Of a stretch of DNA of 64,000 bases, positions 3,173-60,641 are shown in pieces. The stretch is from Ulva prolifera (taxonomy: Eukaryota; Chlorophyta; Ulvophyceae; Ulvales; Ulvaceae). The translations under genes were made by a program, and so were the position numbers. The DNA lies in the NCBI GenBank assembly GCA_023078555.1, contig CM041196.1:6893985-6957984 (forward strand), given 5' to 3'. The number at the start of each line of letters is the position of its first letter. Positions within the stretch are counted from its first letter, which is position 1. The notes beneath the pieces are model-generated. The model had not been told where the DNA came from. It saw only the letters and a program-made list of their open reading frames with translations, and made no database searches.

Positions 3173-5762
3173 GTGTGGAGTGGTATCAGATGGGCTGCAC
3201 GTTCTCTCCCCGAAACGGCAGGTACCTCATTCGCGGAACATGCATATGGACTGATGGAGGCGCACTATTTCGGACAATGCTTGGGGGGGCGTTCGTCGAA
3301 GCCCAGCTCTTCATCACCAGAGCGCCCGCAGAGTTCTGTCTTCCCGTTCAGAAGAAACTTTTTTACCCGGGGTTCCAGGTCATGGTACGTCTCGGGCTGC
3401 TTGCGAGCGTGTGATGTTCTGCCGCCTTCACATACCCAGCATGCCTCCATGCTCCACTGCAGGACATCGACCCTTTTCATGTCACGATGTGCTGCCATGC
3501 AATGGGCAAAGACACTTGAGCTCAGCCTCTCGCAAGCAGAACATCACGCATCCCACGTGCCGCGCAAGCCTCAGCAGGCGCCAGATGGCACGGCCGTTGC
3601 AAGCACCTCCGGCATCGAAGCAGAACACATCGCTGATTGCTCAAGACGGGAAATACGCACCTGGCATGGTCAACTCCACGCTGCAGATGTGCGGAAAAGT
3701 GCCGATTAGATTCGGTCATGTCGGTCTCCCACCCTGTGCAGACGCGCCTCCCGCATGCATGCAGAGATGCGCATCTCTGGTGTGTATGCGTGTACGCTGC
3801 GTGCTGTCCAGCTACATGCCGCCGCCGGTGTCTCATCAGTGTGCAGATCAATGCGTCAGATCATTGCCAGACAGGCGCCACGCAGCGCCACGATGTGTGC
3901 CAGGTCGAGAGACCGGGCGAGCGAAATGCTACACGCACAGCCAGCGCCTCAGCACAACGCCTCAGCACCAACACCATCGATTGTGCCTCTGTCTTCGCTT
4001 ACCCCTCGCTCGTTGTAAGACCAGGTCTTGGGGACCACCAGAACGCGCAGTCGCATGCAGATGCTTCTGAAGTCACTGTGACGCGTGATTGCATGCACGC
4101 CTGCAGGTGTATCTGAGGTCACTGTCAGATCGCCCAATGACTGTGAATGGAAGGGTGCATGCCTACCCTCTGCCTGCCCATGAGCGCCAGGAGATCATGA
4201 GGCAGCTGCCGGAGCGCCTGCGCGCTCTGGCCGTGGACGGCTCAAACCCTCACTTTGGGGACAGGGAAACTTGCTTCGAATCATCACCGAATCACACGTA
4301 TACCACACCCTTCGACGACATCGACCTCCCCGCGGTAAACATCTGCTCCCTCCTGGAATTCTTGGCGTCTGCGGAATCGATCGTGCGGCGTTGTGGCCAT
4401 TCGCAAAGTACAGCTGTGAGCACCAAGATTCGCAGCCATGTGGTTGCTGTTATCAACTTGAATGCATATCTGCTTGCTCTGTGTTGTATCACGGCGCTGT
4501 GAGCTCTTCGAAGTGTTCTGCCCCATGCATGCCCATCCCCCCTCCCCCCCCCCCTATCTCTACATCCATGCGTGCTGCTGACGCCGCTGCCGGCGCCTGC
4601 GGCAGCTAATCGGCGCTGACAACGCCGCAACGCATGCTGCGAGTGCCGCGCTGCTCCTGCCATGCTGCAAATGCAGTGTGCTGCAACGTGGGTATCTGCC
4701 TGGCATGCGGCTGCTGTCCTGCTGGGTGCGCTGAACCGGCACTCACACACACACAAGCACGCGGATTGTACAGGGTGCGGACGTGTACGTGCAGCTGCAG
4801 TTCCCCACACTCAAGTTCAAGAAACTGTCAAACATGGTGCGACACCGCTACATACATGCCAGTGTGTGTGTGGTCACCCCTCGTCTGGGTCCGGCGTGAT
4901 GTCTGGTCTGACAGTTCATGCTCTTTTTGTTTGAGAGTCGTTTGCTCGTTCATACCCCGGGGCTTCCACCCCAATGCCCCCCACGCAGCAGCGGCACATC
5001 TTTCCAATGAAGTCAAGTCTGGGCCTGTACCCAGGCGCCGGTTTCGTTTTATTCATAGCGGGTGCTACAGCGCCGTCGGGCTGTTCCGGATGCGGCAGGA
5101 GCGACACCGGCGGCGAGTGCTGGTTGTGCATGCAGCAGCCCGTCACGCTCGTGTTTGCCATGGCCTTCGGGGATGCGCAGGACGTCATGGCCGTGATGCT
5201 GAAGCCCCCCACCATCTGCGTGTGCCGAGCGGACCAGCGTATCAGGGCAGCTGTCCAGCTCGGTTACTCCGAGCACGCATTCGACAGCATCAATGCCCTT
5301 GGTGGCATCCAGTTTGGCACGCCCGGCGATGCCCTTGGTGGCATCCAGTTTGACATGCCAGTGGTGGCCGTACATGCCGCTCAGCAGCAGCAGCCTGAGG
5401 TGCCGCCGCCCGACCACGCGCTTCGTGACCTGCAAGAGGCCGAGCTCCACCCGGAGGAGCTGCCGGATCCTCTGCAGCAGCTGCCGCAGCCCAGCTATGT
5501 GTTCTTCGACCTGGAAGAGTGGGAGGCCGAGCCTGTCCGGGAGGAGCCGCCAGATCCTCTTCAGCAGGTGCCGCAGCCCGGCTATGGATTCGCTGACCTG
5601 CTGCAGCTGCAGGAGAAGGCCGTGCCCGGCCCGGCGGCGTTCGCTAGACCCCGAACGTTCCCCGATGCCCTTCGCAACGACTTGCACGAGTGTATGCATC
5701 GTCCTGCCTCAGGCATGCTCCCCCCCGCCCTCCCCCCCTTTCCTAGGTCAAACGCGTGCTGA
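3173..5762 (+). CDS. C1: tandem core-family gene, first copy (partial model)
   Basis: Four exons can be read: 3173-3378, 4107-4334, about 4758-4836 and 4989-5762. Exon 1 has the family ITRAPAEFCLPV motif and ends at CAG|GTCATG. Exon 2 starts at CTGCAG and carries VTVNGRVHAYPLPAHERQ. Exon 3 carries VQLQFPTLKF and ends at ATG|GTGCG as in the paralogs. Exon 4 has two CxxC pairs (CSGC, CWLC), then QPVTLVFAMAFGD and ICVCRADQR, followed by a tail with a duplicated ALGGIQF and a duplicated PDPLQQ(L/V)PQP unit rich in Glu and Asp. The start codon is not resolved; upstream exons are likely. Later 3-prime exons may lie in 5990-6460, where the sequence matches C3 near 17.5-17.9 kb before the next unit begins at about 6466. 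Function is not recognised; a nuclear DNA-binding role is inferred from the fold hypothesis. The exon 3 acceptor phase is uncertain. Confidence 0.6.
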
Positions 5763-6465
5763 GTGAGCTTTTCTCCTCCCACCGCGAGGTAGCGGGCCAC
5801 ACCCACTCGAGCGAGTGTGCCGCTGCTCCGCATGTATGCACAGCCGTGTGCGGCGCGCTTGCTGCGTTCTCCAGATACAGGTCGCACCCGCGCGCGCTCG
5901 TGGCGCATCTATTCCGGCGGCCGTGTGCGGCGCTGATGCCGTTTCATCTGACGCGACGCAATTCGGAGCCCGCAGCCGTCCCGCCTGCCTCCGGCCAGTC
6001 TCCTTCCGGCAATGGTCCTCGTGGCCAGCCCTCACACCCCGTCCGATCTACGTCTGTGGCATGCAGCCCGGCACCGTGAACGAGAGAATGACCTTGAAGC
6101 CGCGGGCGGATATGACATGTGGCCACAGGCAGCACCGGGCCGCCGCAGGGGGAGAAGCCCCGGTGCGGGAGCCGGGGCGCGTGAGCGCACCCCCGCAGCA
6201 AGAGACCGGCACGATCCTGCCCATCTCTGGCCTGTCATGCGCTTCGGTGGCGTCGACCCTGAGCGGCCGCCCGCGCAGCAGCAGGCTGTGCACCCGCTCG
6301 GCGGGCACGCTCCCCCCGCCCATGGAACCGGCGCGCAAGCGGGCGAGCCGGCGCCGGCGCTGCAGGAGGAGCGAGAGGTCGGCTTGAGGCTGCTGGGGCA
6401 GGGTGCGGACGTGAATGGGAGCTTTGACACTGTGCGGAGGCCTGGTTCATACCATGATTCGACGA

Positions 6466-7340
6466 CTCGCATGAACGGACATCACCCCCATGGCCCCGTT
6501 GTGCCTGAAGACAACACCTTGCTCTATTCAATCTCACGGGGAGCCAAACTACAACGTGCGCGATCACCTGGACTGGCCAAATGCAATGTGTGTCTGGAAC
6601 TGGTTCTGCCCATGACAGTCTGCTAGATTCACCATGCCGAGTGTTTGGGCGTCAAACGTCGGGCGAGGCGTCGCGGCCTGGTGTGCTGGATGGCATCATG
6701 GCGACATGTGTCCAGTCATCGCAGTCACAGGCGTCCATTTTCAATGGACTGTCCATATGGCATGGGATCGAGGAGTCATCCGCTTTTGTCTCCATCTTGC
6801 CTCCTCAACAGCCCCACGCCCAAGAGAAGCATGCATGTCTGCCCTGTGTGCGGTGCCGTGTCCCCACACTTCCCTTCTCGATTCAATTTGTCGACATGAG
6901 TTGTCACCTGCAGTAAGAAGAGAGTCTCGTGTGTATATGCGCCGCTTCCAAATCACGACACTGGCATCGTGCGTCAGGTGGGGCTGCGGACTGCATCGAG
7001 GCTCGTGTCACAAGCGGCTGCCGGTAGCGCAATGTTGTCGACGCTACACAAACAGATAGATTGCAGGCGGCCGAGACTTATGTTGTGTCGCGGTGCCACC
7101 ATGTCAACAGACTGCCAGGTGGACAGCGTTGCGTTCAACGTAGCTGAAAGGGCGTTTACTTTCTGCAGCAGTCGGGCACAGGCATGCAACTCTCGCGTCA
7201 GTTCACACACAAGGTAGTGCGTTTGAGCTTGCACTGCCTGGGCGACTGTACTGGCTTGGCTTGCAGCGGGGGGCCCTTGCAATGGCATTCCAGTCAATGT
7301 GCCCCCCAGCGTCGCGCATGACGGACACTTGATCTCCATC
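6466..7340 (+). repeat. Block Q, copy 2, upstream of C2
   Basis: This copy begins abruptly at about 6466, directly after the 3-prime part of C1, so the block P seen before the other units is missing here. From about 6735 to 7205 I find no clear difference from 13057-13527, while the flanks on both sides differ at many positions. That pattern points to gene conversion or a very recent exchange between units. Confidence 0.65.
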
Positions 7341-7346
7341 TTGCAG

Positions 7347-9369
7347 ATGTGGAAGCGTTTCAGATGGCCTGCACGTTCTATCGTGCTGAACAAGGCACAT
7401 ACCTCGTTCGCGGAACATGGGCTATGGAAAGCCAGACTCTGCGGACAACGCTTGGGGAAACGAACGTCGATGTCACCCTCGGCATCGATAGAGCCCCTGC
7501 CGAGTTCTGTCTTCCCGTCAGAAGACAAAGATTTGGGCCGGATTTTCAGGTCAAGGCACGTACCGCTCTCAATGCAAGCAGACCATCACATTTGTCGTGC
7601 AAGCATACACAAAATGGCACGGTCAATCACCTCCGGCCTGGAAGCAGATGTCGCATGCAGTTGCTCCTGAAGTCAGATCGACCAGTGACCGTGAATGGAA
7701 AAGTGCATGCCTACCCTCTGCCTGCCTCTGAGCGCCAGGAGATCATGAGGCAGCTACCGGAGCGACTGCGCGCTCTGGCCGTGGACGGCTCGAGCCCTCC
7801 CTTTGGTGACAGGAGAATTTGCTTCGAATCATCACCGAATCACACGCCTACCACACCCTTCGGCGACATTGACCTCCTCGCAGTATGCATCCCCCTCCCT
7901 CCTGACATTCATGGCGTTTTGTGCAACAGATTGTGCGGTATCGTACCCATCCGCAGAGCACAGCAGCCATCACCGACGCCCGTGATGCATGTATGGCTCC
8001 GTGTCCTGGCTGTATTGTTTCCGCGGCACGGTGAACTCCACAACGTGTTCTGGCCCGCGTGCAGCTGAGTCCCCCCTCCCCCCGCCTCTCGGCATCCACG
8101 CGTGCTGCTGGTGCACGTGGCTGCCAGCTGCCCGGCGCTGACAACGCCGCATGCTGCAAGTGCCATGCTGCAGCGTGGGTTCCTGCCCGGCATGCGGCTG
8201 CTGTGCTGCCATAAGCGTGCCGAAGTGCAGCTCAGATTCCTCAGCACGCGGATCGTGCAGGGAGTCACCAAGTCCTTGGCGTTGCCATTCCCGACGCTCA
8301 AGTTCGGGGCGCCATCAGGCATGGTGCGGCCCCCCCGCCTGCCCCCGCCTCCTTGCAGCACCTGTGGCACATGTATACACCTCTATCTGCATGCACACTG
8401 TCGCGCAGCTTCAGGGGGCGATACATCACGTGCGTGTAGCGGGGTGGCGCCCGCCGCAACCACAACGGCGCTGGTGTGTGTGCGTGCGTGCATTCGTGTG
8501 CTGTCTATGCCCGGGCTGCTCAGACCAACCTGCGTTGGGCAGAGGCGCGACGTCAGTTCGGACATGCTTGTATTTGCGAGAGTTGTGTGGGGCCTCTGCG
8601 TCCAGATGAGGCGTGCATCCATGCCCTGGCGGTCCTCACCCCTGCAACCCCCATTCAGCGGTCGCGCATGAGTCCAATGGACTCTAGTTCCATTCCGGGC
8701 CGTGGGGTGCACCGTTTGAAAGGGTGGTGTGTATGGTACTGCCGACAACTCATCGGCCTGTTCCGGACGCAGCAGGTGTGGCACCGGCAGCCCAGTCAGC
8801 ATCCCGGGGTGCCTGCAGGAGCCCGTCACGCTCGTGTTTGCCATGGCTTTCGGAGATGCGGAGGACGTCGTGGCCGTGATGCTGACACCCCCCACCATCT
8901 GCGTGTGCCGGCCCGAGCAACGTATCAAGGCAGCTGTCAAACTTGGCTACTCTGAGCATGTATTTGACAGCATCAACGCCCTTGGTGGCCGGCATTTTGA
9001 GGTGGGGTGCACATGGAAACTTCCCATTGGGAAGCTTGGTGGAAGCAGGTCCCGGCGCCTCTGGACCCCCCATCAGCGCCTGGAGCCAACGTGTGACCCC
9101 CATCAGCCCCAGCAGCCGCCCGCCGTCCATAACCGCCGCGCGAACACGCACGGTGTCGTAGCGGGCGAGCAGCAGCAACACCACGCAGTCGACTTGTTGC
9201 CGGCGGAAGGGGACACGGGCGGGTGCTTGACAACGTGCAGGACGCCGTGCTGTCTGAGATGTGGGAAAACGTCTGGGGCCCTTCGGATGGCACGCAGGCG
9301 GCCCGATCCTTAACGGGCATAGACGAGGGCGGGGGGTACCTGACGTTGCCAGCGGACGATGCGCAATAG
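7347..9369 (+). CDS. C2: tandem core-family gene, second copy, shortened tail
   Basis: Exon 1 is 7347-7549 (TYLVRGTW, then GIDRAPAEFCLPV), exon 2 is 7661-7882 (VTVNGKVHAYPLPASERQ), exon 3 is 8231-8323 (LALPFPTLKF) and exon 4 starts near 8723. Junctions 1-2, 2-3 and 3-4 are all phase 0. Exon 4 has EPVTLVFAMAFGDAED, ICVCRPEQR and a DSINALGG end like C1. The long His/Gln repeat tail of C3 is absent: the sequence jumps from about 9000 to material matching C3 at 17.8 kb. One frame there ends in DEGGGYLTLPADDAQ at 9369, matching the C3 terminus; another frame closes at 9313, and I cannot tell which is used. It is a gene or a recently damaged copy. The start codon is unresolved. Confidence 0.6.
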
Positions 9370-9589
9370 TGTGAGGCACGTTGACTGGGGCTGTCCCAAG
9401 CCATCTGCGGGAGGTTGTGCACCCACACGCGGTGCAGCGCGTGTGTCCCTACTCTACCCGCTGTTCCCTGAAGTGGGTGCGGCGGCGCGGGGGCGATGGT
9501 GTGTCGTGCGAGGCAGGCATGTCTGCAGAAGGGCGCCGCGGTGCCGGCGGCCGATGGTGACCTCTTGCACATGCATGTGGCATGATGGC

Positions 9590-9745
9590 TGATAGGGATG
9601 TCTGTCCCCAGCTCGATGTGTTTCAGACACAGTTTGTGGGTCGTCTCGGTTCAACCGCTTTGCCACTTTTGAGAAATGCGATGGTCCTTGGTGCCCTGGG
9701 AGGTCGGCGCGACGCATGAGTCTGAGTCGCAGTGACGTGAGCTGG
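9590..9745 (+). repeat. Shared 3-prime flank of C2
   Basis: This segment matches 18310-18470 downstream of C3, so the duplicated unit extends past the coding region. It includes a conserved TGCACATGCATGTGGCATGATGG stretch just upstream on both sides; no ORF is conserved. Confidence 0.55.
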
Positions 9746-10529
9746 TCGAGTTCAGCTTTTCAACACAACAGCCTTCAGGGAGACAGCGCCGAATGTCAAT
9801 CGAATTGAGTTGATCATGCAGCCTCAAGTGGGTCTGCGGTGACTCAGCACTGAGAAGTTTGGTCAGCAGTAGCCCACGGATTCTGCCCAAGAGTCCTGTG
9901 ATAGCGAACCCAGACGCTACCGTAACATAGCAGTCCCGCTCTTGTGATCTCCGGGCACAGACCATACGAGCACGCCTTGACCAAGTTGGCACGGCTGCAT
10001 GGCGGACAAGGACCGAGCCGACGAGGCAGGCAGCACCGTGAAGGCAGCGAGCAGCTCGAGACCTGGTGCAATCGTCCAGCGTAACGCACCCGTGCCACAG
10101 ACGGCAGCCCACACCGAACAAGCACCGATGCAACACATCGCTCCCCAAACAATCAAGTCCGCACGCGCCTACACCACCATCGGCGTCCCAATATGTGTCC
10201 ATACCCCAATGCACACTCAGGCGGGAATTCAAAGGAAGACGTACGGTGACACGACCGCCCATGCGTGCAGACCCGCACGCACACCCGCTCACAGATGCAT
10301 GCACGCATCGCGCACGGCGGCCCAACCCGAGGCCCCCCGGCCCAGCCCTCACATATGCATCGCATCACACACCCCGTCACGCACCCTAGGCCACCCGAAG
10401 CTCAGACCATGCAACGCCAGCGCCGCTCCGGCTACAAGCACCCCAGGCTATGCATCCATGTCGAGGCTGACCGTTGTAGCTGAGCCAATGTCCTTACATG
10501 TCCAGCTCAGCGCAGATGTACATAGTCTT
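9746..10529. other. Unique spacer between array units
   Basis: I see no copy of this stretch elsewhere in the window and no convincing exon. The open frames here lack codon bias and clean splice signals. Confidence 0.4.
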
Positions 10530-12790
10530 CTCTTCATGCACACGCTTCCCTTTGCTCTCGGCAGTAGATGACAGCCCCGTTTTCATCAGGTATTTATGTG
10601 GGGCCGCGCATGCATCCAAGAAAGCTTGCAGGATGTGCCGGAGGAAGGCTCGCATGTCCGGGCGTGCGTATCAACATTGGCTACACGCTTCTGGCAGCCC
10701 ACATTTCTGCTTGCCCCGGCGCAACGGACAATCAGGGCTCAACCAGAAGAAATGCCCTAGCTAGGTCACTAGCAAAGCCGCAGCGCAGGCTGCCATGTTG
10801 CACGCCCAGACATGCATGTTCTTGTGTGACGACCAGATGCCAGCACATCACCCTCGCCAGCTTTGGGTCTCGGCAGGTCATAGCACCACAAATGAGGCGA
10901 GAGCAGCACCAGGAGTACCGCACGACCTTCATCAAGCACAGACGCCATTGTTGTCTTATGCCGGAAAGCGTGCAGATGGCTGTTTTGTCTAGTTTGCTCA
11001 TGCAGCTCAGGTGCATGGGCAGCCCTCCCCAGCCATTGTGCACAACGCTGCAACACCAGCCAGCGAGTGACATGCCAACATGGACAAAGAGGTGTGCTTG
11101 CTGACCAACAGGGGTAGAAGCATTGAGCTGTGCACCACATAACACAAGTAATATTGTTGAGTGTTGAGGATGAGCCATGAGCCATGCCTCTGCTGAGCTC
11201 ACTATACTCTATCGGATATGTATCTATGCCCAGCACGACTAGAGCACTGAACCAGGTAAATGTCGCTTATCATACACTGGCGTTTACTGGAATTGCCTTG
11301 CAGGGATGGATACAAGAACTGGATTCTTGTTTTGGTCACATATCACGCACCGGCGCGGATGCATGGCCTATCTACCTGATTGCGAAAATACCAGGGCGTT
11401 TTTGTCCTGACGTTTTTGAGGTACAGTACGACAGGTTGTCAAACGCTCAGGCGATCGATGTTGAGTCGTCCACTGCCACAGCAGCATCGACTCGATGGGC
11501 ATTTCAGCCCCAAAGGCATCGTCAGCTTTGAGCAGAGCATGCTCGTTCAGATACACGTTGCTACGCAGTGATGACTGTGGACTGCATGCTCTGTTCGCTG
11601 TCCAGTTGCACGCATCCTTGGAGGTGCGGTATGGACCAAGAACGCAACTCCAGAGTCGTTTGCAAAATGTGGTTGAGGGTGCTGTGCAAAGCCTGATCAG
11701 CGCCAACCAAACAATTCCTGATACTCCGCCATCACAGAGGTCTCATGAAGCCGTGCTTCGAACTCCGGTCAGGCGCAGTCAGTCTTCGAGACCGGTCGCA
11801 TACGCCTCATACCAAGGGCGTTTCTCAGCGTGAGCCTCTGCCAGGTGCTCGAGAGACAACGCAAACCCAGCGATTCTGAAGGCAGCTGAACAGCAACGAC
11901 ATCTGCAGCGACTTGGATACGGCTGTAGTCGCAGCCGCTTTCGAAACAGAGCCCGTCATCGACAGAGAGGACGCAGGTGCCCTGTTGCTGCATATGCATG
12001 TTCTTGGTACAAGAACACAGAGGCAGCCGCTGCACACAAGTATTGTCGGGTCACGCTGTGATCACGCCTTCAGTATGTTTCGGACGCCAGATCACAGGAA
12101 GTGGGCAATTGGAAGAGCAATGCGGAGAAGTTGCGACATGTGGCACGAGACTCGAGGCCAATTCTTCCCTGGAAGAAATTGTCTCCTCCATTCCTCAATC
12201 ATGCTGCCCAAATGGGCCAGGTCCCTTGCCGTCGAAGCTTCGACGGCAAGGGACGAGCGCCGCGGCGCTCGCGAGCGTAGATCAACAACAGTGACGCGCG
12301 CGACGCCAAGAAGCTTGATCTGGCCTGATCCCCAAGCCGCGGCACCGCGGCGCACTGTGAGCTGGTGTGATGCGGCCATAGCCCGACAAACGCGGTATGT
12401 ACGGCGAAGGTGGCACGGCTGATTCCATATGCAGCACTCTACACATTGATAAGCAGAAATTGTACCATGAAAGATTCCAAACGTACTCTCATGAGCGTTG
12501 CGACGCGTAGCTGAACTTATCCGTCTCAAACCTCCGAACACGGGGCTAGTGCATATCCAGATCAGCGAGGGCCGGGTGGATTGATCAACTGACGCTGGCC
12601 AGCCACTAGACTACGTGCTGCAGTTGCTGCAACAACATATGATCAGGCTGACGCTTGGCGTGGCGGTGCGGCGTCGTACGTCAGGCTGGTCCGCACACAG
12701 GGCCAAAATCGCACTGCCTCAAACACGAGTGCGCACATCTCGAGAGAGTGAGCTTGTGTGCAGGCTGAATACTAGGACATCCGTTGACTC
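10530..12790 (+). repeat. Duplicated block P, copy 2
   Basis: This is the counterpart of 1-2190. An exon-like stretch at 11304-11420 (after TTGCCTTGCAG, before GAG|GTACAG) is open for 39 codons and contains YLIAKIPGRFCP, which has spacing like the core exon 1 motif of the C genes. A second open stretch at 11569-11690 contains QLQSRLQNVVEG, weakly like core exon 2, but its phase does not join the first. A palindrome-rich insertion at about 12221-12330 is absent from copy 1. I read it as a decayed family member. Confidence 0.45.
12221..12254. repeat. 34-bp perfect palindrome centred on AAGCTT
   Basis: Each base from 12221 to 12237 pairs with its mirror from 12254 to 12238. It is followed directly by shorter palindromes (GAGCGCCGCGGCGCTC, GCTCGCGAGC). 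The homologous place in block P copy 1, near 1690, has only the left arm, so the palindrome arose after duplication. Confidence 0.9.
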
Positions 12791-13600
12791 TCATGAACGG
12801 TAATCACCACCATGGCCCCGTTGTGCCTGAAGACAACACCTTGCTCTATTCAATCTCACGGGGAGCCGAACTACAACGTGCGCGATCACCTGCATTGGCC
12901 AAAAGCAATATGTTTCTGGAACTGGTTCTGTCCATGACAGTCTGCTAGATTCATCATGCCGAGTGTCTGGGCGTCAAACGTCGGGCGAGGCGTCGCGGCC
13001 TGGTGTGCTGGATGGCATCATGGCGACATGTGTCCAGTCATCGCAGTCACAGGCGTCCACTTTCAATGGACTGTCCATATGGCATGGGATCGAGGAGTCA
13101 TCCGCTTTTGTCTCCATCTTGCCTCCTCAACAGCCCCACGCCCAAGAGAAGCATGCATGTCTGCCCTGTGTGCGGTGCCGTGTCCCCACACTTCCCTTCT
13201 CGATTCAATTTGTCGACATGAGTTGTCACCTGCAGTAAGAAGAGAGTCTCGTGTGTATATGCGCCGCTTCCAAATCACGACACTGGCATCGTGCGTCAGG
13301 TGGGGCTGCGGACTGCATCGAGGCTCGTGTCACAAGCGGCTGCCGGTAGCGCAATGTTGTCGACGCTACACAAACAGATAGATTGCAGGCGGCCGAGACT
13401 TATGTTGTGTCGCGGTGCCACCATGTCAACAGACTGCCAGGTGGACAGCGTTGCGTTCAACGTAGCTGAAAGGGCGTTTACTTTCTGCAGCAGTCGGGCA
13501 CAGGCATGCAACTCTCGCGTCAGTTCACACGCATGGTAGGAGTTTGTCTGAGCTTGCACTGCCTGGGCGACTGTACGGGCTTACCTTGCAGCCGTTGCGA
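12790..13600 (+). repeat. Block Q, copy 3, upstream of C3
   Basis: Third copy of the block upstream of C genes. It is nearly identical to copy 2 over about 460 bp and diverges on both sides. Exon 1 of C3 follows after a TTGCAG acceptor. Confidence 0.65.
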
Positions 13601-13667
13601 TGACATGCCAGTCAATTTGCCCCCCAGCGTCGCGCATGATGGACATCAAATTTCCATCAGGTTGCAG

Positions 13668-16600
13668 ATGTGGAAGGGTATCAGATGGCCTGCACGTTCT
13701 TTCGTGCAGAACAAGGCACATACCTCGTTCGCGGAGCATGGACTCCGGAAACGCAGACGCTTGAGACAAGGCTTGGGGAAGCAAACGTCGAAATCACCCT
13801 CACCATCGATCGAGCCCCGGCAGAGTTCTGTCTTCCCATCAAGAAAAAGTCTTTCAGCCCGGAGTTTCAGGTCATGGCACGTCTCGCTCTCAATGCAAGC
13901 ACACCATCACACGTCGTCCATACGGGCACCAGATGGCACGCCCAATCACCTCCGGCCTGGTGGTGATTGGGCGTGGCCTGGGAGCAAAATATATCGCTGA
14001 CGTCGTTCACCAAGAGAACCATATAATTGTTATCGTTGATCGCACGTAGTAAATGTGCGGTGATGTGCCGATTTCGATCATATCCATCTCATCAGAGCGG
14101 CGACCAGGCGACCTGGTCAGCACGCCTGCCCGTCAAATTTCCATGCAAGCGTGCGACGGCCTCGCTGCAGTGAGTGCACCAACATCGCCTGACTCTCAGG
14201 CCGGAGTACCAAGTCCCGGGGCCCCCAGACCGCGCAGTCGCATGCAGGTGCGTCTGCTTTCGGATCGACCAGTGACTGTGGCTGGAAGGGTGCATGCCTA
14301 CCCTTTGCCTGCCTATGAGCGCCAGGAGATCATGAGCAGGCTACCGGAGCGACTGCGCGCTCTGGCCGTAGACGGCACATGCCCTCAATTTGGCCAAAAG
14401 AACACTTTCTTCGAGCTCCAGACACCAAAACACGAGTACACCTCATCGCTCGGTGACGTTGAGCTCACCGCAGTGCGCATCCCGCTCCGCCCCCCGGCGC
14501 CTCGGCGTCCCTGCCGTTCGTTGGTGCTGATCATGTGACGGCTGCTCTGTTCATTGCATGGCTACGAGTCGTCGCTTTGTCGCATCATATGTTGGGGACC
14601 TCCACTCGAGTGGCATGCGGGGTGCCAGCCTGTGCAGTCACGTGAGGCGTTCGAACATGCTGGCAACAGTGCCACTGCTCGTCATCGTGGCGCTGTCTGC
14701 GGCAGCTACCCGTCGCCGATGCCGCAACGCATGCTGCGAGTGCCGCGCCGGGCCTGCCATGCTGCAACGTGGGTATCTGCCTGGCAGGCACACGGCTGCT
14801 GTGCTGTGCTGTAAGTGTCCTGAATTGTAACTCAGATTCATCGGCACACAGATTGTGCAGGGTGTCACCAAGCACGTGACGGTGCCGTTCCCTACGCTAA
14901 GATTCGGGAGGCCATCGTACATGGTGCGGCGCCCCTGTCTGCCCCCGCCTCATTGCAGCACCTGTGGCACATGTATACACATCTATCTGCATGCACACTG
15001 ACGCGCAGCCTCATCAGACGGTACATCATGTGAGTGTAACGGGTCGATGCCGGCCGCCACCACAAGGGCTCTGATGTGTGCACTGTCATGCTCCTCAAGC
15101 TGGCGCAGAGGAACTGCGTAGAGTGCACACAATCCGGTGGCTGCGGGCAGTGCACTGGTTGATGGCCTGCCTGTGTGCGTGCGTGCATTCGTGTGCTGTC
15201 TGTGCCGGGGGTGCTCAGACCAGCCTGCGTTGGGCAGACGCGCGACATCGGGTCTGGCGGGTCATGCATGCGCGCGTTTGCAAGAATTGTGTGCGCCTCT
15301 GCGTCAAAGATGATTCCTGCATCCGTTCCTCATCCCGGTAACCCCCATTCAGCAGTCGCGCATGATTCCAATGAACTCTGTTTCTATTCCGAGCCGTGGG
15401 GTGCACCATTTCAAAGGGTGGTGTTCATGTTACTGCCGACATCTCATCGGCCTGTTCCGGACGCAGCAGGTGCAGCACCAACAGCCCAGTCAGCATCCCG
15501 GTGTGCCTGCAGCAGCCCGTCACGGTGGTGTTTGCCATGGCGTTTGGAGATGCGGAGGACGTTGTGGCCGTGATGCTGACACCCCCCACCATCTGCGTGT
15601 GCCGGCCTGAGCAACGTATCAAGGCAGCTGTCAAGCTTGGCTATTCCAAGAGTGTGTTCGATGAAATCAATGCCCTCGGTGGGATTCAATTTGACCTGAA
15701 GGCCGCAAAGCTCGCTCAGAAGAAGGTGGTGCAGGCACCCTTGAACCCCCAACAGCCGTCGCGACCGCCACAGATGCCGCATGATCCGTATCAGCTGCCG
15801 CAGCCGACGAATGGCCTCCATGAGCCACATCAGCCACTGTATGGCCATCAGCCCGAGCAGCCGCCGCCGTTTGATGCCCATCATCAGCCCCAGCAGCCGC
15901 TGTTTGATGCCCAGCAGCCGCATCAGCCACTGTATGATGGCCACCAGCCCGAGCAGCCGCTGTTTGATGCCCATCATCAGCCCCAGCAGCTGCTGTTTGA
16001 TGCCCGGCAGCCGCATCAGCCACTGTATGATGGCCACCAGCCCGAGCAGCCGCTGTTTGATGCCCATCATCAGCCCCAGCAGCTGCTGTTTGATGCCCAG
16101 CAGCCGCATCAGCCACTGTATGATGGCCACCAGCCCGAGCAGCCGCTGTTTGATGCCCATCATCAGCCCCAGCAGCCGCTGTTTGATGCCCATCATCAGC
16201 CCCAGCAGCCGCTGTTTGATGCCCAGCAGCCGCATCAGCCACTGTATGATGGCCACCAGCCCCAGCAGCCGCCGTTTGATGCCCATCATCAGCCCCAGCA
16301 GCTGCTGTTTGATGCCCGGCAGCCGCATCAGCCACTGTATGATGGCCATCAGCCCCAGCAGCCGCTGTTTGATGCCCATCATCAGCCCCAGCAGCCGCTG
16401 TTTGATGCCCAGCAGCCGCATCAGCCACTGTATGATGGCCATCAGCCCCAGCAGCCGCCGTTTGATGCCCATCATCAGCCCCAGCAGCCGCTATTTGATG
16501 CTCAGCAGCCGCATCAGCCACTGTATGATGGCCACCAGCCCGAGCAGCCGCTGTTTGATGCCCATCATCAGCCCCAGCAGCTGCTGTTTGATGCCCAGCA

Positions 16601-43747: not shown

Positions 43748-43776
43748 GTCAGAGGGCTTCGGAAGAACCCTCTAAG

Positions 43777-46700: not shown

Positions 46701-47529
46701 GGCCTCGTCACCCGCACACACTCCCCCACTGTCCCCCGGGCACCACTGGAGCCGCGCTCCGGAGCCGTTCCGGTCTGAGATCGTGCCGGCCGGTGACCGA
46801 GGCTACGGCAACACGCCGCCGCCGCGCATGCGGCCGCAGCCGTACGGTGGCGCGGCTTCGTCGGCAAGCCGGGCATCAGGCGGCAGCACCGACCGCCGTG
46901 TGATGCGGCGCCGGACGACCGCCATGCTCGCGGCGACAAGCAACGCTGACGCTGTGTCCAAGGCTGCGCACGAGGCCGCGGCCGCCGCGCTCGCGGAGGA
47001 GCAACGCATGGCAGCCATGTATGGCGCGGCCGGGTCGAAGCGGCGATTGAATGTTTCTGGGGTGGATAGCTCCCCGTCGGAGATGCTGGTGGGCCCCGCT
47101 GCTGTGGGGTCCGGGTCCGGGCTTGCGGCGGTGCCGAGTGTCCTCGAGGCCAGCTCCACGCTGGGGTCCTCCAGCAGCACTCTGAGCCGGCGGGAGGCTG
47201 CGTTTGCCGTTGTGATGGGCCGCGCGTCAAATGTGTATCCTGGCGGAGTGATGGAGCGCCGTGCGGTGGGCTCTCCAGCTGCGTCCATCGACCGGGGCAT
47301 GCGCGACCACGGGGACGGAGCGGGAGCGGAATTTGATGGGAGGGCCCGTGGCGAGAGGTGGGCGCAGCGGAAGGATTCTAGGCAGCCTAGCGCGGAGTAT
47401 TCGGGTAGCCCAGGCGGTGAGGGCGGTGTCAGCAGCCCCTTTGCTGCGGAGGCCCCTGTTGAGGCCTCTGTTGACGGAGGCCGCTTTGCTATGCATTTGG
47501 CGGATGCACATGGGCAGTGGCTGGAGTAG
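43777..47529 (+). CDS. T: giant Pro/Ser/Ala-rich disordered protein, two exons read
   Basis: Exon 43777-45960 (728 codons) ends CAG|GTGTGT; the 249-bp intron ends GTGTAG; exon 46210-47529 follows in phase 0 and stops, giving 1,167 residues. Third positions are overwhelmingly G or C. No known domain is seen. Runs of PPP, SSS and RSP-like elements, many PxxP turns, and Arg/Ser-Pro sites suggest a disordered phospho-scaffold. The C-terminal half has Ala/Glu-rich helix-like segments (AAHEAAAAALAEEQRMAAM). Upstream of the ATG the frame stays open to an acceptor at 43747 (GGCGCAG), so 43777 may not be the true start and the reading could be a tail exon of a larger gene. A TGTAA motif lies 50 bases after the stop. 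Function unknown. Confidence 0.7.
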
Positions 47530-47578
47530 ATTATGACCTCGCGCTTTTGTATCAACATGTACAGGAGATGCCTGCATT

Positions 47579-47583: not shown

Positions 47584-49931
47584 CTCCCTGACGTAGCTGT
47601 GCATTGTGTGCGTGCATTGTGTGCGGTCCTGTGTATCTCGAGATAGGCAAACTGAAGGGCTTCAATGCACAACTTGCATGAAGAGTCAGATCAGAAAGGG
47701 ATGATGCCTGCTTGGATCACAATTTTACAAATGAGAGCGCTCTGTGTTCAGCGCAGTCATCCGTAGTGTGACAGAGCCATGCCGAGCGCCACAAGCGCGT
47801 GCTTGGAAGGTAGTGATGGGTCCGTTAGCCGTTCTCAACAGCGTAATGCCAACTCAACCATCGCACAGAGTATGGGCATCTTTGAACGGCTAATCGTCCA
47901 CTATTACTGTAGACGCCATGATGTGAAGGCCGTGACATGAGTGGATCTCATCTCCCATGGCTTTCGTTGCGAGCTCCTGACGCATTTGTCGCAGTGATGT
48001 TTTCCGATGCGTCTGAAGTGTCAGCTGGTGATCATGGAGCCGTGAATCGCTCCGTAAATACACAGTCGACCGCATACGCGAGCATTTCATTCGCGCGGAG
48101 CGATGGTCACGTCGCACAGCCGCAAATCCAGCTGCTCAGCGTGCCAGACGACATAGTCAGTGCTCAAGACCATGATTGGCTGAGACCATCGCAAGCTCAT
48201 AATTACGCCACAAAAAATGGTGCCTGGCTGACTGGCTGCCGAACGAAAACATGCAGCCATTCACCTGCTCTCATCGGATTACTAGGACAGCTGTATCAAG
48301 CAGGTCCGAGCATGGACGCGCGGCCATCATGCTCACGCAGGCAAACCTGCAGCTTACAAGGGCTGTGCAGACCGTTTATGCTGGAGGCTTCGGGCTGTGA
48401 CTCGGCTGTGCCCGAACAGAGGGCAATGCCGCGCAAGCGCCGAGTCCCAGCTGAGCCCTGTGAACACGCCGTGCATCTAGATATATATGCCTTGCAGCGT
48501 CTCAGCGCATGCGCTGTCAGTCGAGCCAGACTGTGCGTGAAAGATGACGTGTCGATTGAGGAATCCGGGCATTCCATGTCTACAGGCCGCTTGGCCATGC
48601 GCTTCAAGTTGACCAGGTCCTCCTCACGCATTGCGGCTCCAGCTAGATGACGATTATGCAGTGAATCTGCTCCCGCAGGATGAAAGCCACTCCACTCTGC
48701 GCCGACGTACAGCCCACCGAGGCTAGCAGTGGTGTGCCGCTACACGTACGCACTCCACTGTGGCTGGCTCCTTCGCGCCGCGCCAATCGGTGTGTCGGCT
48801 GCCCGATGTGCGAGTGGATCGCATGCTCGAGGCAGCCGCCCCTGCATGTGTGGAGGTCCGAGCCGGGACGATCCCAAGTCATCAGCAGCAGTCCCAACGG
48901 CATACATACGAGGCTAACGATGGTGACTGAACCTGGCCAAGAGCACTATGTCGCTACAATTGTCTGTTGCGCAGCAGAGAATCGATCGGTGCTCTTGCGC
49001 GCCTGGTGATGCACTTTACAGCCGTCGGAAACATCTTCGATCTGCCCAAGGCTTCGCATGACGGCCACCGTTTACAAGCCGCGGCGGTAACGTATCCACA
49101 GGTGCTCTCAAGCAACGGCAACAACACAACATCATGGAAGGCTCGCGAATTGTGCTGGATGCACGTGTGCACAGTGCTGAATACAGCTGGATAGTCAGCA
49201 TCGCCACCCTTTATCCAAACACCTCGACCCAGATGCGGACCTTCCACCTCCAATAGGACAGCACCGGCCGTTGGCATCGATGCATCCGTCATCAGCGAGT
49301 TCTCTCGGCAGATTTGAAGCGACCACATGGGGAACAGCAACATTCACGACCGATCTGGTTCACTCGGGGATGATGTCCTCCAACGGCTGCAGCAGGTGTG
49401 CATGTGTCTCCGTCGCTGGACACGCATGGGCACGTCGCGCTGCTGGCATTACTCGCGTGGCATGCGGGGAAAGGGATCATAGTGACCTCACATTCCCAGA
49501 CATTTAGCTTTCCAGACGCTGGGCCGCGTCGCTGCTGCCACGCGGGCTTTCTCGTGATGATGGCGCTCTGAGATGTACAGGCGCCCTGCACTGGTCTACG
49601 TCCAATGTCACCAGCCGCAAGCGATCCAGTGGACCGCTTGCCTACCTATCATTTGCTCGGTGGCATCTAGCTGTTTTGCATCAGGCCGTTCAGCCTTTGC
49701 TTGCCCGCACGGACCTGCTTGCAGCACAAGCGACGCCTAGCCCGCCACGGCTGCCCCGCAGCCTCGCCTGAGCCAGCTCATGATGTACATTTTGATGCCA
49801 ATGCTGCGATAGTCCGCTCCAGGTGGCGTGCACCGGCCTTGCCGCTCGTCAGGTGATTTTCGTAGCAGCACACTGGCATCACAGGTTTGCCCCGCAGAAT
49901 AACGTCTAAAACTCGCGCCTGCGCATTGCAG
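47584..49931. other. Spacer between T and U; unassigned frames
   Basis: A 237-codon plus-strand frame starts with ATG at 47937 (APDAFVAVMFSDASEV near its start), but has mixed codon use. Upstream exons of U probably lie here, since U begins after an acceptor, but I could not place them. Confidence 0.3.
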
Positions 49932-52565
49932 GTAGAAGACATCAGCGATTCGATTCCATTCGATCCGCTGGACACACAGCGCCGGCGGATGTCACGCCGA
50001 GCGCATGGCTCCAGTCAAGCTACCGGCAAGACGCCTGCCAAGGCTTTGGCGGGCCGAGCCTCGAGGTCCCGGAGAGAGTTAGCGTCTCCTGATGACATCT
50101 CAAACACGATGTCGCTCCTCGCCTGCACAGATGCCACGCACACCGCCAGCTGTAGGTCAGCCGGTTTGTCGAGAGATCCAAGGACAAAGGACGCGGCGAC
50201 AGCTGGTCAACGCACTCAGTCACAGCTCCCAGTTATCGAGGACTCCACCGCCATGTCTCCATACTACGGCGTTCCCCCTCCTGAGCCAGTCCGCCCAGAC
50301 AACTCTCATACCGGAGCCCTACCCGATCATCCAGATAGCCCTACAAGCTCACAGAAGGAGGAGCACAGCCCTGATGCACCAGCAGCCACTGAGCAGCCCC
50401 GCCCGCTCACCAAAGTGCAAGCGACAGCCACTGTCGCCCCACCGCCGCCCCCTCCACCACCCCAACAGGAGCCACAGCCGGCTCCTAGGCAGGAGTCTCA
50501 CGCTGAGGTAGTGCATGTGCCAGACGCCCCCGCAGCGCAACGGCCCGCCTCCTGGCGCCCGGAACCCCCGGTCCCGGCCCCCGCCCGTCTCCACCACCCC
50601 AGCCGCGCCCCGGCCCCCCGCGTCGAAGCCCAACAAGCCGACTTCCTCTCCACGCCACCTCCCGTCGACAAGGTCCTCCTCGACCGCTTCCTGGCAGCCG
50701 CGGCAGATACACAAGGTCTCCCAGAAGACGCGCGGGCAGCCTCTAGCTCCTCCAGCCTCGGCTCCGCGGCCCCCCCGGCTGCAACCTTGAACCGCGCAGC
50801 GTCCCCTGGCAAGCCCGCGCCCCGCGGCGCTGCTGCGACGGCCGCGATGTACCTCACGCCGCGCCGCGCTGCCACGCGCACCAGCGACTCCTCCTCTGCG
50901 CTGCCTCACGGCGGCCGGCCGCAGCAGCACGCGCAGAGCGCGATCAGCGCGTTGTACCGCTTTGCGACGCTGGCCGCCGAGCGCCGTGCTGGCGGCAACG
51001 GCGGCGCGGCGGTGGTGCCCCCGCTGGCGCCGCCCCCACGCCGCCCCCCCGGCCTCCCCCGCCACTCCCTCAGCGGCGAGCTTAAGCCGTTGCTGCAGGA
51101 GGACTCCCAGCTGACGCCGGCTGCGCATGCGAGCGTCGCGACAGGCACCCCCCGCGACGAGGCGTCCCCACGGCGCATCCGCTCCGGCTCGCGCACCCGC
51201 CGGCCCTGGGGCTGCGGCCCGCGTGCATCCCTCGCATGCATCTGCGGCATGCCGGAGGTCGACGAGGGGTCGTCCTTCGACCTCGTGCCGCTCGTGCCGA
51301 CCGACGCGGAGCTGTCTACACACGGCGAGGCGCGCAAGGCGACCCGGCCGCACAGGTCGCCGCAGGAGGAGACACCGCCTCTGCACAGCCGGCAGCAAGC
51401 CGCCTACGCGATGTACCAGGGCACCCCGCCACGGCCACAAGTGCAGCGGAGTCCTCTCGGCGGCCCGGCCTCCAGCACCCTCTCCCCCCGCCAGATGCAT
51501 GGCCGGCGCGGGCCGCCGCGCCCCGGACCCCCGTCCGGGCCGCACATCACCGGCGCAGGCCCTCCGGAGCACCCCGTGCGCGACAGCCCTCGGACGCCGC
51601 AACCCAGCGAGCCCACACGCACGGCGCCCCCGCACTGGCGCAACACGAAGCGGCAGGAGCTGTCTGCCGCGCTCACGCAGGGCAGCCCCCGGCGCCACCG
51701 CGAGGGGCAACACACGCCGAGGGGCACGTGCCGGCGGTGCGGCATGTCGGCGTGCCGCTGCGCCGCCCGCGAAGCGCAGGCGCAGGCGCCCGGCGAGTGC
51801 ACCCCCCGCACCGGCTGGGGCAGCCCGCGCGTGCTGCCTGGCGGCTACACCTCGCAGCCCCTGCGCAGCCCCCGCCCGGACTCCCCCTACGCAGGCGTTG
51901 CGATGCAGCGCGCCGACTCGCAGCCGGTCCACGGCGAGCCGGACGGCAGCCTGCACCGCAGCGCGGTGCCGCCGCGCATGCTGGGCGCGCTGGGCGAGTA
52001 CCGCGGCACGGGCGTGGGGCCGGTACGGCCGGGGCCGTTCGGGGGCCCGACGGAGGGCCCGCCGGTGCGGTTCCGTACGATGCAGGAGACGATGGCCGCG
52101 CAGGTGCCGCCGACGGCCGCGGAGGCCGCGCAGCGCGTGCAAGGGGGCCTCCGGCCGAGTCCGCAGCGGCTCGAGGCGACGAGCTCGTGGGCGTTGAGTG
52201 CCGCACGAGCCGCGCACGGTGCGGCAGTGGCCGCGGCTGCGGCCGAGGGGAGCAATGTGGACGCCGCTGCCGGCGGTGCGGGCGACGACCCGGCAGGGCG
52301 CGTCGAGGCGGTGTCGGCGCTTGGTCGCGGGGCTTCTCCGCCCCCCTCTGCAGCGGGGCGAGACACGCCAGATGGTGGCGATGTCAGCGCGGCAGAAGGT
52401 GCACTGGGGCGTGGGGGGGAGGGCAGTACTTCTGGAGACGAGGCTGTAGAGCCTGCCGCAGAGCAGGTGCCACCAAGCTCCCTCTGCCGCTCTGTGGACG
52501 TGGAGGTGACGGACGGCGTGTATGGCGGCGACAGGCCATCGTCCCAGACCCTTGTAGCCGCATGA
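49932..52565 (+). CDS. U: giant Pro/Arg/Ala-rich disordered protein, last exon
   Basis: The frame starts right after a good acceptor (TGCGCATTGCAG) in phase 0 and runs 877 codons to the stop at 52565. If there is no upstream exon, the first ATG is near 49989. Third positions are strongly G or C. The protein is basic and proline-rich, with polyproline runs, many Ser-Pro and RSP sites, a cysteine cluster (CRRCGMSACRC) and an Ala-rich C-terminal part with acidic residues near the end. It resembles T in composition and shares a short motif (EDISDSI and DDISNTM here, EISDTI in T). No domain is recognised. It may be a disordered tail exon, as in the core family, or a scaffold protein; the sequence does not settle this. 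Confidence 0.65.
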   Translation, partial: VEDISDSIPFDPLDTQRRRMSRRAHGSSQATGKTPAKALAGRASRSRRELASPDDISNTMSLLACTDATHTASCRSAGLSRDPRTKDAATAGQRTQSQLPVIEDSTAMSPYYGVPPPEPVRPDNSHTGALPDHPDSPTSSQKEEHSPDAPAATEQPRPLTKVQATATVAPPPPPPPPQQEPQPAPRQESHAEVVHVPDAPAAQRPASWRPEPPVPAPARLHHPSRAPAPRVEAQQADFLSTPPPVDKVLLDRFLAAAADTQGLPEDARAASSSSSLGSAAPPAATLNRAASPGKPAPRGAAATAAMYLTPRRAATRTSDSSSALPHGGRPQQHAQSAISALYRFATLAAERRAGGNGGAAVVPPLAPPPRRPPGLPRHSLSGELKPLLQEDSQLTPAAHASVATGTPRDEASPRRIRSGSRTRRPWGCGPRASLACICGMPEVDEGSSFDLVPLVPTDAELSTHGEARKATRPHRSPQEETPPLHSRQQAAYAMYQGTPPRPQVQRSPLGGPASSTLSPRQMHGRRGPPRPGPPSGPHITGAGPPEHPVRDSPRTPQPSEPTRTAPPHWRNTKRQELSAALTQGSPRRHREGQHTPRGTCRRCGMSACRCAAREAQAQAPGECTPRTGWGSPRVLPGGYTSQPLRSPRPDSPYAGVAMQRADSQPVHGEPDGSLHRSAVPPRMLGALGEYRGTGVGPVRPGPFGGPTEGPPVRFRTMQETMAAQVPPTAAEAAQRVQGGLRPSPQRLEATSSWALSAARAAHGAAVAAAAAEGSNVDAAAGGAGDDPAGRVEAVSALGRGASPPPSAAGRDTPDGGDVSAAEGALGRGGEGSTSGDEAVEPAAEQVPPSSLCRSVDVEVTDGVYGGDRPSSQTLVAA

Positions 52566-55500: not shown

Positions 55501-56114
55501 TAGTAGCCAGTGGCTACTAGCCACCTCTCTAGTCATCTGATTTGTTCAACACCAATGGAAAAGCACAGCCCACGTACTGCTAGCATTGCTGATACCACAG
55601 GAGCGTCTGCATGCATTGACAACTCCAAGTGCATTGTGTACTGAGGTAGAAAGTTCACTGGTTGATGCTGTATTACATGAACATCACGGACCGGCATAAC
55701 ATGTTCCGGCCTTGCCAAAGGGCCTCATCAGACGCCTACGTGAGTCAAGCAACCAACACCGAACCAGCTCGCAAGTTCCCTAATATTCACTCCTCTAGAG
55801 CGAGACCGACCGAGACTGGAAGAAACGTCCAGAGCCCAGAAAACCGACACAAGATAAGATAACGAGATAAGGCACATCACGCCGCAGAGGCACGCAAGTG
55901 TACCTCCGCAGCACCTCCAGCCCGTGCGGAAGCAGCCGCACGACAAAATAGGCCGACTGCCCAAAAAACGCAGGAAAAGAAAGAAATCCTAGGTGGCAAT
56001 GTCCGTGGCAGGAGGACAGCCAAGTACAACAAGCTTATCAGTGACAATGGCAGAAACCCACAGTGGACTACAAACCAACTGCATGAGAGGCACACATATG
56101 TTGCAACCACTACA
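52566..56114. other. Intergenic DNA, no gene supported
   Basis: The left part is probably the 3-prime flank of U. No frame shows the GC-rich third positions of the neighbouring genes. A perfect 25-bp duplication is listed separately. Confidence 0.4.
53111..53160. repeat. Perfect 25-bp direct duplication
   Basis: Positions 53111-53135 and 53136-53160 are identical (starting TGCGGTGGCGTGCG). Confidence 0.95.
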
Positions 56115-56570
56115 TCACACATCCGCCAAAAGGCGCAGAAACAGATCCCTGCCCGCATAGAAGTCATCCTCCAGGATGCCAGGGTGGAAGGCCAGAATTG
56201 CTCTGCGCGTGCGCACAGCCGAAAAGCCGAGATGCGACGCGTCGAGCCAGATGGCGAGGAAGCCGGCAGCGTGGAGAAGACCGTCCAGGGTGGCGGAGGT
56301 GTTGTCGCGGAGCCGCGCACACTTGCCCATCACCCATGCACGGAAATAGACACGGCCGGTGCGGACCACGGAGGGAAAGAAGGTGACGCGCGGAAGCGGG
56401 GGGTGCCGTAGGTGGGCGGCGAGATTCTTCGGGCGGAAGAGCAGATGGATGTCGGTGGTGTCGAGGATGATCCGGTGCTCCAGGATGTCGATGATGCGGC
56501 CTTCAGCGGCATTGTGTGCAAAAGTGACTAGGCCAGGCCGTTCCCCGAAGAACCGCGACCCGCGTGGCAT
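56115..56570 (-). CDS. Single-exon 151-residue protein of unknown function
   Basis: The frame starts ATG (MPRGSRFFGE) and ends TGA. Nearly all codons end in C or G, in contrast to the AT-richer DNA around it, which supports real coding. The protein has a mixed strand and helix look: an ILEHRIILDTTDIHLLF segment, a basic/proline turn, VTFFPSVVRTGRVYFRAW, then a Leu- and Ala-rich stretch (LLHAAGFLAIWLDASHLGF), and an LFLRLLADV end. I recognise no family. The frame continues open upstream for 25 codons without the same codon bias, so the ATG at 56570 is preferred. It could be a free-standing gene or one exon of a longer one. Confidence 0.5.
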   Translation of the reverse strand: MPRGSRFFGERPGLVTFAHNAAEGRIIDILEHRIILDTTDIHLLFRPKNLAAHLRHPPLPRVTFFPSVVRTGRVYFRAWVMGKCARLRDNTSATLDGLLHAAGFLAIWLDASHLGFSAVRTRRAILAFHPGILEDDFYAGRDLFLRLLADV

Positions 56571-58849: not shown

Positions 58850-60641
58850 GTCCAAGTCTGTCAGGAACATACTGGGACATTGCCAGTGAAGGTGATGTGG
58901 ATGGTCGTGCATGGTGGCGGGAACCATGCTGCATCCTCGAGCTCGATGTCACTCCCAGGTCCCACATGCATTGCCTCGTCAGTGACTGCCTTGGCGGTTT
59001 CCTCACCCACCACAGCACAGCTACAGGTGCATAGCTACCACCGGGCTGAAGGGTCCGCATGCTGGACATCCCTTAGTGCAGGACCGTCGACACAACCACC
59101 ATGTCACCATCACTGCACATATCCCCCACGCTGCCACGAAGAAGGCTCGGTCCAGGCTGCTCCAGATCGCCCGCAGTGGGCCTTGCTCCCCCGCAGAGGT
59201 CTTGGCTTGCAGCGCTGGCGCGTCTGCTCTCCGGCGAATACATTGTAAATTCCACCCCCTCCTTTTCAGGAGATCGTGGGGTAGCGTGCGCTTTGGGGAG
59301 CGAGACAGCGTGACCACCTCGCTGAGCACAGGAGGAGGCCCGGTGAGTTGCGTACGGTTGTCTTAAGTGGGTTTTCCAGGCAGTTTGCTCCTTCGCCACG
59401 TGATCCCGTCCATCTGGAGTTGTCGATGTCCTTTACAGGATACGGCTAACCAAGTCCAGGTTTACTTGACACGGGCAGCGCTCCTGTCCTGTTCCCGCTG
59501 ACTGCTTGAACACCATACCATGCATACATGCATGTATTTCTGCAAGGAACGTCCCACGCTGACCCAATCCCCCACTGGGACGCAGAGCAGCCGCTGCCGT
59601 GCAGGCCTGGCTGGGGATGACGCCGCCCTCGCACATGCCACCCTCGACTCGGCGTCGCTCGTCGACATGCATGCGCTCCTCAACGAATCCGGCCGCCTGC
59701 TGGTCTGCCTGCGGCCGACCCTCAAGATACCCCTGCCCGATGAGGACATGCACGCGTTTCTCAACGAGTCCGGCGGATCGCTCTGCTACCCGTGGCCGTG
59801 CTTCGACGTGCCCCCGCCCGGCGCAGTTGTCCGTGGCGGCGCGCCCGTCACCCCGGCCACCTTGCCGCCGCAGGGCGTCACCCTTGGCGCCCCCTACCTC
59901 GGCGGCGCCTCGGTGTCTGAGCGGTCTCTTGCGCCGATGCTGACCGATCCCGGCTACCCCAGCACAGCTACCATCCCGCAGCCGTGGGTCGAGCTCGGCG
60001 TTCGGCTGCCGCACCCGGACGCCATCTCGGCGTTCCGGCCCCACATGGTTTCCCTCGTGGACGACATGCCGATGGTGTGTGCGCAGGCGGCGCCAGGCCA
60101 CCTCGACGGCATGCATGTGCACGGCCGGGGCTTCCGCAGCGCCTTCCGGCAGGCGCGCGCGGCCCTCCCGGACGCGCAGGCGTCCCGCGCCGGCTCCGTC
60201 GTCAACTTCAGCATCACGCTGGACACCCACGGCGCCATGCCGTCGCCGTTCGGGGGCGCGGCGGACACAGCCACGCTGTTCCAGGGCCCCCCGCCGTGGC
60301 ACACCCCGTTTGCGGGGCCCCCTCCAGGTGGTTTCAATCTTGCCTCGCGCCTCCCTCCAGCCGACCCAGGGGCTGCTGACGTGGAGCGGGGGGATGCCGA
60401 ACACGAGTATGCGCGCATCGCGCGCGCATATGAGACGGTCACCGCGTCCTTTGCTCAGCCCTTGGTTGCCCCTGTCCCCACAGTGCCGCTGCCGATGCAT
60501 GCGCGAGGGCCGCAGCTCGGCCTGGCGATGTTTGGTGGCATGGGCGACGGCAGCGACGCGCCGGTGTGGGTCGACGCCGCGGAGTCGGTGGAGCTGCCGG
60601 CGTCCGACGACATGCACGGCGTCACCGCCGCCTTTGGCTGA
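58850..60641 (+). CDS. G6: probable core-family gene at 59-60.6 kb
   Basis: The last exon, 59586-60641 (after ACGCAG, phase 0, 351 codons), is secure: strong GC third positions, a repeated unit (DMHALLNESG then DMHAFLNESG), and an end with VDAAESVELPASDDMHG. Its start (DDAALAHATLDSASLVDMHA, then LLVCLRP) has the spacing of core 4 of the C genes (VVFAMAFGDAEDVVAV, then ICVCRPE). An exon starting at 59082 after GTGCAG, phase 0, has HHVTITAHIPHAATKKARS, matching PVTVAGRVHAYPLPAYERQ at the same distance from the splice site. A stretch ending about 58975 has GTYWDIAS and ILELDVTPRSHMHCL, like GTYLVRG and ITLTIDRAPAEFCL of core 1. A small exon at 59270-59342 would be core 3, but phases around it are not resolved. 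Start codon unknown. Confidence 0.5.

Follow-up and report, generated by a model that had tools for sequence, protein, structure and literature searches.

A small protein family with a four-exon core in Ulva prolifera: a tandem gene triplet and a distant relative on the opposite strand

A stretch of 64,000 nucleotides from the green alga Ulva prolifera (GenBank assembly GCA_023078555.1, contig CM041196.1, positions 6,893,985 to 6,957,984 of the forward strand; the whole stretch is called the window here, and positions are counted from its first letter) holds a genuine but small protein family. It consists of three neighbouring genes on the plus strand, C1, C2 and C3 (about 3173-17147), and a distant relative on the minus strand, N, which runs from 28931 to at least 22917. 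Its core is encoded by four exons, and we refer to the segments they encode as cores 1 to 4. The family has no name in the libraries searched and is new relative to Pfam and PDB. A first-pass annotation of the same DNA, made from the letters, had proposed a multigene family, defined by a core of four exons and present on both strands, extending over 3173-60641. The proposal is borne out by C1-C3 on one strand and N on the other, within a footprint of about 3.2-17.1 kb (C1-C3) and 22.9-28.9 kb (N) instead of that whole span; the family is thus smaller than first claimed.

The structure of the C genes comes from reading the three copies together. In each of them cores 1 to 4 lie in order on four exons with open frames, GT-AG borders and three phase-0 introns. 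Three phase-0 introns had been proposed before, with doubt about the exon 3 acceptors of C1 and C3; these acceptors also fall in phase 0 (CAG/GG in all three copies, the slash marking the splice border), and exon 3 is 21 codons long in every copy. In C1, exon 1 (core 1, APAEFCLP; 3173-3378) is preceded by TTGCAG, a tentative acceptor, is followed after 3378 by the donor CAG/GTCATG, and is open in all three copies. Exon 2 of C1 (core 2, VHAYPL; 4107-4334) lies between GCAG/GTGTAT and GCG/GTAAAC in phase 0, exon 3 (core 3, FPTLKF; 4774-4836) lies between CAG/GGTG and ATG/GTGCG, again in phase 0, and exon 4 (5136-5762), entered at GCAG/CAGCCC, encodes core 4 to about 5318 and then an acidic tail up to the stop codon. 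The three-copy reading places the exons of C2 at 7347-7549, 7661-7882, 8261-8323 and 8819-9313 (core 4 to about 9001, then a short tail), and those of C3 at 13668-13870, 14248-14472, 14861-14923 and 15513-17147 (core 4 to about 15695, then a tail rich in glutamine and proline). Trimmed to whole codons, the exons are 3175-3378, 4107-4334, 4774-4836 and from 5136 onward in C1; 7349-7549, 7661-7882, 8261-8323 and from 8819 onward in C2; and 13670-13870, 14248-14472, 14861-14923 and from 15513 onward in C3. The exon 1 acceptor is uncertain, as is whatever may lie upstream of it. A scan of pN/pS (the ratio of nonsynonymous to synonymous differences per site) established no upstream coding exon for C1-C3. 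Judged from their sequence, the splice junctions of the three genes are presumably in use.

Comparison of the window's DNA with itself shows that the likeness among the copies takes in their introns and flanks. C2 6464-7641 is 91.7% identical to C3 12786-13960, C1 12-1700 is 84.6% identical to C3 10536-12239, C1 1744-2958 is 81.6% identical to C3 12346-13570, and C2 8477-8988, a block that contains the exon 4 core, is 84.1% identical to C3 15172-15682. C1-C3 are a single tandem triplication, and the three copies therefore represent one lineage, not three independent observations. The duplicated block 12-1700 / 10536-12239 (plus strand) also takes in at least some 1.7 kb of DNA on the upstream side of the C genes.

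The differences that have accumulated since the triplication can be used to ask which parts are coding. Ka/Ks (the ratio of nonsynonymous to synonymous substitution rates) over the core of 222-223 codons is 0.53 for C1/C2, 0.44 for C1/C3 and 0.51 for C2/C3; by exon, it ranges across the pairs from 0.62 to 0.72 in exon 1 (0.72 and 0.63 for the exon of C1), from 0.50 to 0.79 in exon 2, from 0.49 to 0.54 in exon 3 and from 0.18 to 0.24 in exon 4. Insertions and deletions (indels) within exons total multiples of three in 12 of 12 exon comparisons, against 2 of 9 for introns. The control was pN/pS in 40-codon stop-free windows of the duplicated flanks, read in the three plus-strand frames with the three lowest values per frame listed: the lowest flank value was 0.41, against 0.21-0.26 for exon 4 and 0.37 at best for exon 2. 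Exon 4 is plainly protein-coding and under purifying selection. Exons 1-3 are not clearly constrained beyond the flank windows; what supports them as coding is that their frames are open in three copies and their indels come in threes, and for exon 1 also the match in N that is described below. These values bear on an unlikely alternative in which N is the sole working gene and C1-C3, or some of them, are decaying copies that still look like genes. Decay would fit the overall Ka/Ks of the core, the high values in exons 1 and 2, the overlap of pN/pS in exons 1-3 with the best non-coding windows, the shortened tail of C2 and the long non-coding flanks within the duplicated blocks. However, no stop or frameshift interrupts any of the four exons in any copy, and the low Ka/Ks of exon 4 recurs in each pair.

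N, on the evidence of its exons 4 and 1, is a true distant relative of C1-C3. The window was searched in six-frame translation with profiles built from C1-C3 only, which are unbiased with respect to other candidates; statements about these searches refer to the matches listed. The exon 4 profile found its best non-self match at 24281-24117 on the minus strand (E-value 6.7e-6; next 0.80) and the exon 1 profile found its own at 28865-28797, also on the minus strand (E-value 0.15; next 0.92), so that the two matches lie in order on the same strand. N exon 4 matches C3 in blastp at 2.2e-7, and for both N exon 4 and N exon 1, compared with C3 or C1, none of 2000 shuffles scored as high. Far better scores for N were obtained with a model that included N, and these were set aside as circular because N sat in the model. 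N exon 1 (28770-28931, donor CAG/GTGCTA) has a possible start codon (MAATAGSP...), and N exon 4 (22917-24287) encodes core 4 to about 24090 and then a long low-complexity tail.

The two middle exons of N are more tentative. Exon 2 (VRAYAL; 27968-28225) and exon 3 (27014-27139) have phase-0 GT-AG borders, and their sequence similarity is within chance: shuffles did as well or better in 686 of 2000 trials against C3 and 126 of 2000 against C1 for exon 2, and in 1223 and 138 of 2000, respectively, for exon 3. With the C-only profiles, N exon 2 was not among the top matches listed and N exon 3 appeared as a six-residue match at rank 25; exon 3 had moreover been picked from 133 phase-0 candidate exons and its neighbourhood. 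Both are plausible as family exons on the strength of order, splice sites and phase. The earlier statement that all four genes share four exons in the same order therefore holds for C1-C3 throughout and for exons 1 and 4 of N, and stops short of N exons 2 and 3, where sequence gives no more than chance similarity. Downstream of N, an open frame at 19895-21262 (minus strand) with an acidic-hydrophobic end is a possible last exon of N, in which case the gene would extend to 19895.

The first-pass annotation had extended the family further, to loci M and G6 (sharing core 4, and in G6 also core 2), with weaker traces in S and T, so that roughly half of the window might be one family. None of this extension held up. 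M and G6 gave nothing above background with the C-only profiles across the window, and among the matches listed no member was found in them by profiles of C1-C3 or of C1-C3 plus N; for the G6 peptide judged most core-4-like, shuffles scored as well or better in 244 of 2000 trials against C3, 342 of 2000 against C1 and 985 of 2000 against N. Among the whole-window profile matches listed, no family member fell in S, two long GC-rich low-complexity open frames on the plus strand (43690-46206, 839 aa; 46210-47526, 439 aa), or in T, another of the same kind and strand (49866-52562, 899 aa). The frames of M, T and G6 and the first frame of S had no Pfam match up to an E-value of 1, and NCBIfam gave no match for S (both frames), T or G6 and two sub-threshold matches in M. 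The figure of half the window is unsupported because no member was shown in any of these four loci.

Searches for known relatives left the family where the earlier annotation had put it, outside any known one: nothing in Pfam or PDB names it. Pfam returned nothing credible for single exons, for spliced cores or for the end of core 4, where a helix-turn-helix had been considered and found no match. Several weak Pfam matches, all far below the cut-off, were discarded as noise, namely DUF2267 (E-value 0.19) and DUF1797 (0.3) in C1 exon 2, Cas9_Topo (0.022) in one of the four cores, and Tail_tube (0.2) in C3 exon 1. No relative was found in viral contigs (IMG/VR), in prokaryote genome contigs (GTDB) or, using C3 core 4 only, in phage records; absence from these collections, as from PDB and Pfam, says little because none of them holds eukaryote proteomes. 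The PDB search, one Pfam search and one viral-contig scan used an alignment of the four cores in which N lacked exon 3. With this four-core profile, the sole chain among all PDB sequences at an E-value of 10 or less was the mitoribosomal protein mL40 (7pkt chain D, from the Chlamydomonas mitoribosome), at 0.015. The match covers profile positions 37-139 of 224, part of exons 1-2, and is strongest at LPERLRxLA and the loop that follows it in exon 2, and the likeness lies mainly in core 2 of the C copies (4107-4334 and its paralogues). However, N carries LPERLR poorly, the rest of the core is unmatched and the score is weak. The match is a single local one that does not run across the protein in all members, and it is probably due to chance. 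Among the papers listed in literature searches, none dealt with such a family.

What the proteins do is suggested mainly by what follows the core. In N, the core is followed by KRGGGGARGAGARKRRAKR, and the frame of exon 4 holds the basic cluster RKRRAKR (24000-24020, minus strand), a possible nuclear localisation signal. In a count of seven-residue windows with at least six lysines or arginines, including at least two lysines, over the window's open frames of at least 100 aa, this cluster was the sole qualifying window among 47,769. A similar count of acidic-hydrophobic stretches (24 residues containing six or more D/E and eight or more of LIVMFWY, with K/R absent) gave 21 of 42,958 windows, at three places: in the C1 tail from 5448 (plus strand), in the frame 21262-19895 downstream of N from 19996 (minus strand), and in T from 51240 (plus strand). 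The tail of C3 carries an in-frame minisatellite of 93 bases in about ten copies (about 15858-16816, plus strand), whose unit encodes 31 glutamine/proline-rich residues with LFDA/LYDG; C2 lacks this repeat, and tail length therefore changes fast between copies. Tails of the acidic-hydrophobic or glutamine/proline-rich kind are common in nuclear regulators, and for that reason we prefer, tentatively and at somewhat short of even odds, to read the family as nuclear transcription regulators. On this reading, the family is a small set of paralogous nuclear genes with introns: N, a single copy that has diverged, and C1-C3, a tandem triplet of more recent origin. Each gene would encode a strand-rich core of about 220 residues, spread over four exons with phase-0 junctions, and then a low-complexity tail; the core would bind DNA or a chromatin partner, and the tail would recruit the transcription machinery. 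The proteins are probably nuclear, a location suggested by the one basic cluster, in N only, while activation of transcription is suggested by tail composition, and DNA binding by the core is likewise a proposed property.

Several observations weigh against a regulatory role. Both composition thresholds were set after the sequences had been seen, which makes the counts a description and not a test; one of the three acidic-hydrophobic stretches lies in T, outside the family; C1-C3 lack the basic cluster of N; no known DNA-binding domain was matched in Pfam or PDB; and exon 2 of the C copies was modelled, at very low confidence, as helical instead of strand-rich. An alternative to which we give the same weight is that the family is real and its product has a role other than regulating transcription, such as that of a scaffold or binding protein whose tails are disordered; the basic cluster and acidic-hydrophobic stretches would then be incidental. 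The lack of a recognised DNA-binding domain in Pfam or PDB would suit such a protein, as would the low-complexity open frames of S, T and G6 and the acidic-hydrophobic stretch in T. Yet the window has no second basic cluster of this kind, and the one it has stands directly after the N core, a point noticed post hoc.

A special case of the regulator reading goes further and takes the core for a DNA-binding domain of the p53-like class with an immunoglobulin fold, of the type found in p53, Runt, Rel/NFAT, CSL, STAT and MYRF/NDT80. This is improbable, and equally far-fetched is its fuller version, in which an unrecognised p53/Rel/Runt-like domain sits outside its usual lineages, one gene is conserved, and the C genes are a fresh triplet with differing activation tails. 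Its appeal is the order of short motifs by eye, LP..P.F.V - V(H/R)AY.L - F..L(R/K)F - V...FA...G - P.(I/L).V..R, which resembles that of p53-like domains, together with long, possibly activating tails; the family nevertheless differs from these factors (p53, Runt, Rel, NFAT, CSL, STAT, MYRF, LSF/Grainyhead) in having no statistical similarity to them and no Pfam match. Pfam covers p53-like families. In gapped local alignment, C3 and human p53 were collinear across most of the core. At gap costs of 9/0.5, p53 against C1 reached a Z of 2.95 (3 of 500 shuffles as good) and p63 stood out against C3 only (9 of 500); at 11/1, p53 stood out against C2 only (4 of 500). The pair that stands out thus shifts with gap costs, and at 9/0.5 p53 against C3, C2 and N gave Z values of 1.5, 1.5 and 1.7. 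CSL against N gave 0.017, yet the ubiquitin control against N gave 0.013. With a profile and 1000 shuffles, the best p53 result was 63 of 1000 (C1), whereas the GFP control gave 12 of 1000 (C3). Profile-to-profile comparison by hhalign, with 60 column shuffles, gave Z values of 1.89 for p53 (4 of 60) and 1.64 for Rel (3 of 60), then 0.62 for Runt, 0.21 for STAT, -0.09 for MYRF, -0.60 for CSL and -1.24 for NFAT, against 1.07, 0.88, 0.41 and -0.35 for the controls GFP, transthyretin, myoglobin and SOD. With seven or eight families tried and controls standing out as well, the p53-like signals are within chance in all four kinds of test, and the tests are evidence in neither direction. For LSF/Grainyhead, neither Volvox nor Chlamydomonas is reported to have a convincing homologue (PMC2873413).

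AlphaFold models of C2 were of no help in judging the fold. The sequences modelled were translations of contiguous window DNA with introns included, not spliced cores, and in the alignment supplied for the first model C1 and C3 were represented without exon 3, and N without exons 2 and 3. Mean pLDDT (predicted local distance difference test) was 36.1 for C2 read through its introns and 34.8 for C2 exons 1-2 with the intervening intron. These very-low-confidence models placed strands in exon 1 and part of exon 4, which speaks for the regulator reading as far as it goes, but both were too poor to be used in a fold search.

If the family is confirmed, it would represent a conserved domain missed here by all 24,736 Pfam models, and its four phase-0 exons would be a simple signature, easily sought in related proteomes. 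Should the core bind DNA, this would be a family of regulators overlooked by catalogues of known domains. So far the family amounts to an older gene plus a tandem triplet within 64 kb of DNA, and its importance therefore depends on whether orthologues of N exist elsewhere.

Among the other genes of the window, minus-strand exons at 35748-35485 and 33212-32997 encode a cytosolic-type tryptophanyl-tRNA synthetase (best PDB E-values 1.8e-26 and 1.3e-19). A core-3-like peptide at 33140 on the same strand was rejected as a family candidate; it sits in the second of these exons. The window DNA is eukaryotic nuclear, because it carries spliced genes with spliceosomal introns together with this synthetase gene.

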